A DNA stretch of 64,000 bases from Mumia sp. ZJ1417. GTDB lineage: Bacteria; Actinomycetota; Actinomycetes; Propionibacteriales; Nocardioidaceae. Made by a program: the position numbers and the translations under genes. The stretch is taken from the NCBI RefSeq assembly GCF_014127285.1, contig NZ_CP059901.1:2046001-2110000 (forward strand). The letters run 5' to 3'. This document shows, piece by piece, positions 43,315-46,034 of this stretch (position 1 is its first letter; each line of letters begins with the position of its first letter). The notes under the pieces are model-generated. The model ran no database searches, was not told the origin of the DNA, and saw nothing but the letters and a program-made list of their open reading frames with translations.

Positions 43315-44376
43315 TCAGGACTCCAGCAGCAGCTCGGCGACGACGGCGTCGATCTCGTCGCGGATCCGCAGCTTGACCTCGCCTGCCGCGAACGAGGCAT
43401 CGACCGCCGCACGCGCCAGATCGGCGAGGTCGGCGAGGCTCAGCCCGAACGTGTCGTGAGCGAGCTGGTACTCGTGCTCGAGCGTCGTGTCGAACATCCC
43501 GGGGTCGTCGCTGTTGAGCGTCACGAGGACGCCGGCGTCGCGCAGCGCCGGGAAGGGGTGCTCGTCGAGCGAGGCGACCGCGCCCGTGCACAGGTTCGAG
43601 GTCGGTGCGATCTCCAACGGGATCTGGCGCTCGACCAGCTCTGCGACCAGCGCCGGGTCGTCTGCGGCGCGGATGCCGTGCCCGATCCGTACGGCGCCGA
43701 GCGCGTCCAGAGCGTCCCGTACGGTCTGGGGTCCCGTGGTCTCCCCTGCGTGCGGGACGCTTTTGAGCCCAAGCGCCCGTGCACGCGCGAAGACCTCCGC
43801 GAACTGCGGCCGCTCGACACCGATCTCGGGACCGCCGAGCCCGAAGCCGACGGTGCCGTCGGGTGCGTGCCGCTCGACCCAGTCGATCGTCCGCTCCCCC
43901 GACGGCAGTCCGAGCTCTCCGGGGATGTCGAACACCCACGCGAGCTCGACGCCGCTCGTACGGGCCTGCGCACGGCCTCGCGTGAGGGCCTCGGCGAGCG
44001 CGTCGGGAGCGATCCCCATGAGGAGCTGGCTGTCAGGCGTCACCGTGAGCTCGGCGTAGCGGATGTTCTGCGCCGCCATGTCCGCACCGACGCCCGCGAC
44101 GAGGTCCTCGACGTCCTGCGGCGTCGTGACGAGCTGGTTGGTCTGGATGTAGACCTCGATGAAGTGCGCGAAGTCACGAAACCGGTAGAACTCCTGAAGC
44201 GCCTCTTCGTCGACCGGCACCCCGACCTCGGGATGCCGACGTGCGAGCCCGAGGACGGTCTCCACGGACGCGGCGCCGAGGAGGTGGACATGCAGCTCCG
44301 CCTTCGGGAGCGCGTGGACGAAAGGATCGATGGGCCGTTCGCGTCCGGTCGCCGACACGACAGAGGGGTTGCTCAT
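43315..44376 (-). CDS. add: Adenosine deaminase
   Basis: This 353-residue protein has the zinc HxH in 'PKAELHVHLLGAAS', the catalytic 'SVPHAGETTGP', 'RIGHGIRAADDP' and 'VTLNSDDPGMFDTTLEHEYQ', the order of adenosine deaminases. It converts adenosine or deoxyadenosine to inosine in purine salvage; the phosphoribosyltransferase nearby at 41393 fits the same pathway. ATG at 44376; an upstream ATG at 44442 adds no domain sequence. It is divergent from the XRE-MurA gene. Confidence 0.9.
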   Translation of the reverse strand: MSNPSVVSATGRERPIDPFVHALPKAELHVHLLGAASVETVLGLARRHPEVGVPVDEEALQEFYRFRDFAHFIEVYIQTNQLVTTPQDVEDLVAGVGADMAAQNIRYAELTVTPDSQLLMGIAPDALAEALTRGRAQARTSGVELAWVFDIPGELGLPSGERTIDWVERHAPDGTVGFGLGGPEIGVERPQFAEVFARARALGLKSVPHAGETTGPQTVRDALDALGAVRIGHGIRAADDPALVAELVERQIPLEIAPTSNLCTGAVASLDEHPFPALRDAGVLVTLNSDDPGMFDTTLEHEYQLAHDTFGLSLADLADLARAAVDASFAAGEVKLRIRDEIDAVVAELLLES

Positions 44377-44475
44377 CGCGCCATTGAACCACCCCGTACG
44401 GTGGTGGCGGGTGTCTGTTCTCGGGTCAGGCACCTGCGTCACGTGACACGCGGAACACTCCGATATTCGACGATC

Positions 44476-44493
44476 TATCTCACATGTGAGATA
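44476..44493. promoter_or_regulatory. 18-base perfect palindrome before the XRE-MurA fusion
   Basis: TATCTCACATGTGAGATA is a perfect palindrome. It ends 11 bases before the ATG of the XRE-MurA gene, overlapping its leader or core promoter, and lies about 100 bases from the divergent adenosine deaminase start. A dimer of the fusion's own HTH domain is the obvious candidate to bind it. Confidence 0.75.
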
Positions 44494-44504
44494 CGGTGGA
44501 GCAC

Positions 44505-46034
44505 ATGACTGACGACTACCTGACCCGGATCGGGAACCTCATTCGCGACGCGCGGAAGCATCGCGGCCTGACCCAGGCGGAGCTCGCTCAACTCTTGAAG
44601 ACGAGCCAGAGTGCGGTCAACCGCATCGAGCAGGGCCAGCAGAACCTCACGCTGGAGATGCTGGCGCGCATCGGTGCCGCGCTCGACTCCGAGTTTGTGG
44701 CGCTAGGCACGTCAGGCCCTAGCCACCTGCGCGTCGTTGGCGAGACCAAGCTCTCCGGCTCCATCGATGTGAAGTCCTCCAAGAACGCCGGCGTCGCCCT
44801 CTTGTGTGCGGCGCTGCTCAACGAGGGCCGCACCACGCTGCGCAAGGTCGCCCGCATCGAGGAGGTCAACCGGCTCCTCGAGGTGCTGGAGTCGATCGGC
44901 TTCAAGACGACCTGGATCGGCGACGAGGGCGACCTCGAGCTGATCCCGCCGACGACCCTCGACTTGTCGTCGATCGATGCCGACGCTGCACGCCGTACGC
45001 GCAGCATCATCATGTTCCTCGGCCCGCTGATGCACCGCGAGCAGTCGTTCGATCTTCCCTATGCCGGTGGCTGCGACCTCGGCACGCGCACGGTTGAGCC
45101 GCACATGACCGCGCTGCGCCCGTTCGGGCTCGAGGTGAAGGCCACCGAGGGCAGCTATCACGCGACCGTCGACCCCTCGGTTTCCCCTGTACGACCGATC
45201 GTGCTCACCGAGCGCGGCGACACCGTCACCGAGAACGCGCTACTGGCCGCTGCGCGGCACGATGGCGAGACCGTCATCCGCAACGCCAGCCCCAACTACA
45301 TGGTCCAGGACCTGTGCTTCTTCCTCGAGCGCCTCGGCGTCGAGATCGAGGGCATCGGGACGACCACGCTCCGTGTGAAGGGTCGCTCGCGCATCAACGT
45401 CGACGTCGAGTACGCGCCGAGCGAGGACCCGATCGAGGCGATGAGCCTGATCACCGCGGCGATCGTCACCGAGTCGAAGATCACCGTGCGTCGTGTGCCG
45501 ATCGAGTTCATGGAGATCGAGCTCGCGCTGCTGGAGGAGATGGGCTTCACCTACGACCGCAGCGACGAGTACCTCGCCGAGAACGGCCACACCCGCCTCG
45601 TCGACATCACGACGTACCCGTCGGTGCTGCACGCGCCGATCGACAAGATCCACCCGATGCCGTTCCCCGGACTCAACATCGACAATCTGCCGTTCTTCGC
45701 GGTGATCGCGGCGACGGCCTCCGGGACGACGCTGCTGCACGACTGGGTCTATGAGAACCGCGCGATCTATCTGACCGAGCTCAACAAACTCGGTGCGAAC
45801 GTCAAGCTCCTCGACCCGCACCGCGTCCTCATCGAGGGTCCGACGCGCTGGCGCGCCACCGAGCTCGTGTGCCCACCGGCACTGCGACCGGCCGTCGTGA
45901 TCCTGATCGCGATGCTGGCGGCCAAGGGGACGTCGGTGCTGCGCAGCGTCTACGTGATCAACCGCGGGTACGAAGATCTCGCTGCGCGCCTCAACGCCCT
46001 GGGCGCCGAGATCGAGACCTTCCGCGACATCTGA
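44505..46034 (+). CDS. XRE-HTH/MurA (UDP-GlcNAc enolpyruvyl transferase) fusion
   Basis: The 509-residue protein has two parts. Residues 1-70 are a Cro/CI helix-turn-helix ('RGLTQAELAQLLKTSQSAVN' then 'RIEQGQQNLTLEMLARIGAA'). Residues 75-509 are an EPSP-synthase-fold MurA with 'VKSSKNAGVALLCAALLNEG' (Lys-Asn pair of the substrate site), 'LPYAGGCDLGTRTVEPHMTA' (Cys corresponding to catalytic MurA Cys), and later 'MPFPGLNIDNLPFFAV'. Catalytic residues appear kept, so it may bind UDP-GlcNAc and PEP while sensing them for the HTH. ATG at 44505 follows GGTGGAG; a GTG at 44496 is possible. Confidence 0.88.
   Translation: MTDDYLTRIGNLIRDARKHRGLTQAELAQLLKTSQSAVNRIEQGQQNLTLEMLARIGAALDSEFVALGTSGPSHLRVVGETKLSGSIDVKSSKNAGVALLCAALLNEGRTTLRKVARIEEVNRLLEVLESIGFKTTWIGDEGDLELIPPTTLDLSSIDADAARRTRSIIMFLGPLMHREQSFDLPYAGGCDLGTRTVEPHMTALRPFGLEVKATEGSYHATVDPSVSPVRPIVLTERGDTVTENALLAAARHDGETVIRNASPNYMVQDLCFFLERLGVEIEGIGTTTLRVKGRSRINVDVEYAPSEDPIEAMSLITAAIVTESKITVRRVPIEFMEIELALLEEMGFTYDRSDEYLAENGHTRLVDITTYPSVLHAPIDKIHPMPFPGLNIDNLPFFAVIAATASGTTLLHDWVYENRAIYLTELNKLGANVKLLDPHRVLIEGPTRWRATELVCPPALRPAVVILIAMLAAKGTSVLRSVYVINRGYEDLAARLNALGAEIETFRDI

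Follow-up and report, generated by a model that had tools for sequence, protein, structure and literature searches.

The window, i.e., the whole stretch of 64,000 nucleotides of Mumia sp. ZJ1417 DNA that was analyzed, carries a gene for a 509-residue protein in which an XRE helix-turn-helix (HTH) domain is joined to a MurA domain. The gene and the elements discussed below are as follows.

44467-44472, + strand: weak -35-like hexamer TCGACG (4/6, 19-nt spacer), proposed from the sequence.
44476-44493, no strand: 18-bp perfect palindrome TATCTCACATGTGAGATA, proposed operator with the pattern TATCTCANATNTGAGATA, from the sequence and its conservation upstream of orthologues.
44492-44497, + strand: proposed -10 box TACGGT (TAnnnT), which starts in the last two operator bases, from the sequence.
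44505-46034, + strand: XRE-MurA fusion gene, 509 aa plus stop, from ATG.
44541-44693, + strand: HTH_3 (XRE/Cro-CI) domain, residues 13-63, Pfam E 5e-13.
Residues 32-43, + strand: recognition helix KTSQSAVNRIEQ, assigned from the motif and the model.
44724-46022, + strand: MurA (EPSP-fold) domain, residues 74-506, from an NCBIfam match and an AlphaFold2 model that matches MurA 5ujs.
44781-44786, + strand: Lys93-Asn94, aligned with Lys22-Asn23 of Escherichia coli MurA.
45072-45074, + strand: Cys190, aligned with Cys115 of E. coli MurA.

The window protein scored 49.3 bits with HTH_3, against a Pfam cut-off of 23, and 320.6 with NCBIfam NF006873 (UDP-GlcNAc 1-carboxyvinyltransferase), exceeding the cut-off of 297; Pfam EPSP_synthase spans residues 79 to 493 (E 1e-44). 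With the TIGR01072 murA equivalog model it reached 306 bits, under the cut-off of 392.7. A phmmer search of solved chains returned MurA 5ujs as the closest (E 7e-53), then NikO (1e-18), with EPSP synthases weaker. The AlphaFold2 model, computed from the window protein and 34 fusion proteins, had a pLDDT of 88.8 and a pTM of 0.81, with low confidence in residues 1-3, in the linker (63-70) and in the loop 190-195, which contains Cys190. Foldseek placed MurA 5ujs in its top row (TM-score by target 0.91); rows 1 to 43 were MurA, and NikO appeared from rank 44. A Mumia quercus protein is 97% identical to the window protein, and the fusion is in two pieces in assemblies G213, G321 and G402. The preliminary description of this DNA had proposed a Cro/CI-type DNA-binding domain joined to an EPSP-fold MurA within 509 residues, an apparently intact Lys-Asn pair and loop Cys, and an 18-base perfect palindrome 11 bases ahead of the ATG. 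The HTH_3 and EPSP_synthase matches bear out the first of these, the alignment with E. coli MurA the second, and the palindrome was confirmed at 44476-44493.

When up to three mismatches were allowed, the palindrome was the sole match in the 64-kb window, and 100 shuffles yielded none. In the whole genome, with N at the two central positions, the search returned the fusion's own site with no mismatch and one other, at 551096, whose three mismatches led us to take it as a chance match and not as a second regulon member. With up to two mismatches the only site is thus the promoter of the fusion itself, and the regulon apparently comprises this one gene. As the ATG lies 7 nt past the proposed -10 box, the fusion mRNA is probably leaderless, with the operator placed on the promoter. 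Use of an in-frame alternative start, GTG 44496, would make the coding sequence overlap the -10-like box.

We determined how widely the site accompanies the fusion by using 63 distinct actinobacterial fusions chosen without regard to it (68 loci before removal of copies), in the region from -150 to +30. The palindrome sought upstream of these orthologues was found at no less than 12 of the 16 positions of TATCTCANATNTGAGATA, just upstream of the gene, in 62 of the 63 (16 positions in 25, 15 in 18, 14 in 15, 13 in 2 and 12 in 2). Upstream sequences of canonical murA genes (n = 36) scored 6 to 10, none of them above 10/16, and 5 of 1,260 mononucleotide shuffles reached at least 12/16. Among 20 relatives from the same family (L036-L055), both arms are clear directly before the start in 17; the site is damaged in L048 (left arm) and in L049 and absent from L052. 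The palindrome is also present in families f10, f16, f18, f19, f29, f36, f39, f42 and f43 and at two of three f2 loci, and has diverged in f4 and at the third f2 locus.

The association was also apparent genome-wide. With the fusion called by profile A1 (best E below 1e-100), 123 of 393 genomes of the class carry it. The pattern with at most one mismatch occurs anywhere in the genome in 94 of these 123, compared with 30 of the 270 other class genomes (Fisher 7e-38); the reversed pattern, used as a control, occurs in 4/393. The weak groups are f19 (7/20, in G197 not at the fusion), f4 (0/3) and f29 (2/5), in which L091, L092, L099 and L102 score 12 to 14/16. In f18, exactly one such site was found in 39/43 genomes, two in three and none in one; second sites with one mismatch occur in G359, G469 and G488. 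An exact scan of public genomes returned at least 119 stretches, 80 of which were examined as loci, and among the matches listed the first residue of a fusion is encoded 5 to 41 nt after the site in 54 of the 80. The GC content is at most 0.50 in 20 of the other 26 loci, and L118 and L170 reach no further than 60 nt beyond the site on one side.

The geometry of the window locus recurs in these sets. A TAnnnT box starts with the final two bases of the operator in 66 of 76 sites scoring at least 12/16, and the start codon lies 10 to 12 nt after the palindrome (6 to 8 nt after the box) in 40 of 44 full-length scan loci among the matches listed. A -35 match of at least 4/6 was present in just 27 of the 76 sites, and the -35 box is not convincing in most; in L185 and L264, a TTGACA is followed by a 17-nt spacer that the palindrome fills.

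The HTH and the site appear to change together, with exceptions. The sole site-less member of the 63, L052 (7/16), is also the sole one with a rewritten recognition helix, GMDEGAVARVEQ; its helix region reads MDEGAVARVE, as against TSQ-type helices in the others. In Patescibacteria, the phylum of Candidatus Nomurabacteria, the HTH of L276 has diverged and its site scores 9/16. Seven clade members devoid of an HTH (L277-L282 and L290) have at best 9 to 12/16 and low symmetry over the 420 nt searched. One of them, L290, shares 85% identity over the matched region with L119, in which an HTH accompanies a perfect site. The exceptions are L066, L090 and L092, whose helix is kept, and L049, all with an intact or nearly intact helix and weaker sites (12 to 13/16), and, among Patescibacteria, L262, L263, L266, L267, L274 and L275, with a standard-looking helix and 9 to 11/16. 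Since the HTH-less L280 reaches 12/16 and L283, whose N terminus has diverged, 13/16, the coupling is weaker evidence in the AT-rich setting of Patescibacteria.

Profile A2 at 1e-25 matched 166 of 192 genomes of this phylum. Twenty of them match from residue 7 or earlier (center included) and G632 matches from residue 10, with a diverged N terminus; ten more fall in the same high-scoring group without an HTH, and in four of these ten the matched stretch is marked as containing stops. Of the 21 fusion loci read, 14 reach 12/16, including four (L270-L273) with the site 78 to 113 nt upstream, and L185 and the L119/L261 gene, which were first found through the pattern itself. The Patescibacteria site often reads TATATCANATNTGATATA, with an A-T pair at 4/15 in 13/21 as opposed to C-G in 52/63 actinobacterial sites; the Patescibacteria sites were located by means of both consensus forms, a procedure that tends to favor symmetry. 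The palindrome pattern is weaker in AT-rich Patescibacteria than in actinobacteria. In one locus of Candidatus Gracilibacteria (L242, genome G504), the MurA match holds nine in-frame TGA codons; Gracilibacteria read TGA as glycine, and in-frame TGA is expected there.

A quick tree of 115 MurA domains placed all 72 fusion rows in one group (support 100, branch 1.58) that is separate from canonical MurA and also contains eight other Patescibacteria rows, those of the seven HTH-less members and of L283; the compared fusions are 26 to 30% identical to E. coli MurA. Within this group, the 50 actinobacterial fusions come together (99) and adjoin six Patescibacteria fusions, in a tree for which the tool issued a long-branch warning.

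These observations bear on the possibility that the protein is an ordinary MurA with an XRE domain that has lost its regulatory role, in which case the palindrome would be the site of another regulator or mere promoter sequence. The right arm does overlap the -10-like box, so that part of its conservation could be that of a promoter. In addition, SCO5998 (MurA2), one of two UDP-GlcNAc transferases in Streptomyces coelicolor (PMC12161575), is a candidate counterpart of the fusion, as all 43 f18 genomes, which would be Streptomyces-like, and Streptomyces oryzae carry a fusion together with a MurA above the TIGR01072 cut-off. This gene has been reported to be SigB-dependent (PMC8346170), and the SCO5998-SCO5999 interval is predicted to contain a DmdR1 site (PMC12161575); the available text of these two papers makes no mention of an HTH or an operator for SCO5998/MurA2. 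However, the left arm, which lies outside the -10 box, is conserved too, with at least 5/7 positions in 60 of the 63 fusions when the sites are placed by the right arm and the -10 T alone. Moreover, the site is missing where the HTH is rewritten (L052, L276) and in the seven HTH-less relatives, HTH residues T33, Q35, S36, R40 and E42 are invariant across 35 fusions, two Nomurabacteria among them, and pair 4/15 differs between the two phyla as described above. We consider an idle XRE domain very improbable.

We next turn to the MurA domain. Residues K22, N23, R91, C115, R120, D231, D305, R331, R371 and R397 (E. coli numbering), which we take to be the PEP-site and catalytic residues of MurA, are identical in all 72 fusion rows (the 72 include two pairs of identical proteins), and so is H125. 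The alignment was checked for loss of the catalytic Cys or Lys, and both were kept in 72/72. In contrast to canonical MurA, with which the fusion shares the fold and these residues, including Lys22-Asn23 and Cys115, it has an N-terminal XRE domain, a TIGR01072 score below the cut-off and an altered UDP-contact segment: residues 160 to 164 of E. coli MurA, KVSVG, are replaced with ERGDT in the window protein, in which Glu188, Thr304 and Asp369 are also changed, to Asn, Ile and Pro, respectively. Judged from these residues, the domain is intact on its PEP and catalytic side and rebuilt on its UDP side, and given these changes nucleotide recognition by the fusion may differ from that of E. coli MurA. 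Cys115 is the target of fosfomycin. An Asp replaces it in 15 of the 29 canonical MurA rows that have a letter at this position, whereas the fusion rows all have Cys; species relying on the fusion alone are thus predicted to carry a fosfomycin-type Cys.

Several genomes appear to depend on the fusion in this manner. The genome of the window, a single contig of 4,190,080 bases at 99.75% completeness, holds two EPSP-fold genes, the fusion and AroA (1202918-1204135, read from its translation), the latter with 26.8 bits for TIGR01072 at an E limit of 10. EPSP-fold and TIGR01072 profile searches of the whole genome found no second MurA; MurB is present. TIGR01072 matches once in each of the six genus g1 genomes sampled, among them that of the window. 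Of 149 genomes sampled in the family, 143 have matches at 1e-20, but only 34 have one above the cut-off; the sub-cut-off matches, among those listed, score 300 to 318 bits in open frames of at least 511 aa.

Across the class, with canonical MurA counted by the TIGR01072 cut-off, 343 of the 393 genomes have such a MurA. The 50 others consist of 45 fusion-bearing genomes and G163, G167, G215, G401 and G411. The fusion is therefore the only MurA found in 45 of the 123 genomes that carry it, namely, in 37/40 of the window's family (f1), 3/3 of f2 and 5/5 of f29 (one split in two pieces). In the remaining 78, including the f18 genomes (43/43) and those of f19 (20/20), it occurs together with an above-cut-off MurA. 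A set of 23 named genomes, given without completeness and some of them MAGs, was searched with TIGR01072 (E 1e-20). Nothing but the fusion was matched in Tessaracoccus, Arachnia, Mumia quercus, two Ca. Nomurabacteria and an Aeromicrobium MAG. It lies beside an above-cut-off MurA in Brachybacterium, Plantibacter, Streptomyces oryzae and Kribbella, and Nocardioides zeae has a second, weak TIGR01072 match (78 bits). Most sampled members of one actinobacterial family, plus named relatives such as Tessaracoccus and Arachnia, appear to rely on a DNA-binding MurA that has one clear site.

A domain of metabolic-enzyme origin fused to an N-terminal DNA-binding domain is not without precedent. BzdR, for which the term HTH-XRE is used, combines an XRE domain with a shikimate-kinase-like domain that has lost its enzyme activity, and controls benzoate genes, according to the available text of PMC3602430. 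By analogy, the fusion could be a pure transcription factor with a dead MurA domain as its ligand sensor. The logic of the architecture is the same as that of BzdR, for which loss of enzyme activity was essential in becoming a regulator (PMC3602430, available text), the UDP-side residues are changed, and 78 of the 123 fusion-bearing class genomes hold an above-cut-off MurA too. Nevertheless, the ten PEP-site and catalytic residues are invariant, no MurA other than the fusion was found in the window's genome, in most genomes of its family and in two Nomurabacteria, and the fusion's own promoter holds the sole site with up to two mismatches in the genome of the window. The fusion differs from BzdR in the same three respects, i.e., its retained catalytic residues, its position as the only MurA found and its one clear site, and we regard a dead sensor as very improbable. 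The fusion would rather represent an enzyme-regulator that seemingly keeps both activities, in contrast to the route taken by BzdR.

We thus consider it likely that the fusion is a functional MurA and that, through the palindrome, it keeps its own promoter repressed. The fusion would make enolpyruvyl-UDP-GlcNAc as the working MurA of the organism, and a dimer formed through the XRE domain would bind the palindrome on its own core promoter. Bound there, at its own -10 region, it would repress transcription, and the promoter would be freed when the enzyme is short. The amount of this enzyme, which catalyzes the committed step of peptidoglycan synthesis, would be set by such autogenous control at one target site. 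That the fusion is the only MurA found, that its catalytic residues are kept and that an operator-like site is present across families and in a second phylum all support self-control, and the preliminary suggestion of a cell-wall enzyme controlling its own synthesis accordingly has good support from the sequences. For the other preliminary suggestion, a transcription factor that would read UDP-GlcNAc/PEP, the sequences speak neither for nor against. Autogenous activation is the least probable reading of all: XRE proteins can activate and the direction of control is not readable from sequence, but the site overlaps the -10-like box in 66/76 cases and its occupation would be expected to block RNA polymerase.

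A more ambitious proposal, which we advance tentatively and on balance doubt, has two parts. MurA would be a flux sensor whose open or closed state controls DNA binding by the XRE domain, that state depending on UDP-GlcNAc and PEP, on tightly bound UDP-MurNAc or on fosfomycin attached to Cys190; and a self-contained cassette of gene plus operator would have passed from one of the two phyla, Patescibacteria and Actinomycetota, to the other and later taken the place of canonical MurA in the Propionibacteriales lineage. If the MurA domain does act as such a sensor, the cell would read the demand for wall synthesis at the committed step with the enzyme itself. With the self-repression model, a single protein and an 18-bp site suffice to test autogenous control of the entry into peptidoglycan synthesis, and the fosfomycin target becomes a possible switch of transcription.

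PutA, BirA and NadR are active metabolic enzymes that also bind their own or their pathway's operator, and the fusion differs from them in fold, pathway and DNA-binding domain. Control of MurA has been studied via PrkA/ReoM signaling in Gram-positive bacteria and via CwlM in mycobacteria. We found no description of an HTH-MurA or its operator in the open-access literature searched, including the available text of PMC12565409, PMC9739823 and PMC4255298, and no enzyme-repressor case for a peptidoglycan enzyme in the same literature. XRE proteins with an enzyme-derived domain, such as BzdR, and enzyme-repressors were already known; a MurA with an XRE domain and a site at its own promoter appears to be new.

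The site layout is not special to the fusion. In f16 genomes without a fusion (L302 and L305-L307), a TCTCANATNTGAGA-like palindrome precedes, with the start codon 12 nt after it, a different XRE gene of about 200 aa without a MurA match, which is probably also autoregulated. L301, L303 and L304 (f16) and L293-L295 (f17) show, by eye, neither a fusion nor a shared neighbor. We rejected a second regulon. No operon partner was retained either: an adenosine deaminase gene is found at 6 of 40 loci, a GDPD gene at 20 and an MFS gene at 15, and none is general. In the window, the adenosine deaminase gene (43315-44442, - strand) is divergent from the fusion, with 33 nt between the operator and the start of its longest ORF. 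As the six loci include three relatives from the same genus, co-regulation is possible there.

We also discarded the notion of a mobile fusion. In phages, the matches in the 10 rows listed, of 41 records, begin at residue 59 or later. Among the 15 plasmid rows listed, of 114 matching records, the fusion is present in two: that of Streptomyces sp. BHT-5-2 (2.8 Mb) and that of Nonomuraea gerenzanensis (11.8 Mb), the latter with the site before the fusion start. A hit on a Chelatococcus plasmid, which starts at query residue 14, suggested a second, independent fusion, but its N-terminal alignment was spurious: the gene is a canonical murA that occupies two frames and lacks an HTH. On this plasmid, from Chelatococcus sp. 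CO-6 (L309), the two-frame murA lies between a MurNAc-6-P etherase gene and a BadF/BadG ATPase gene.
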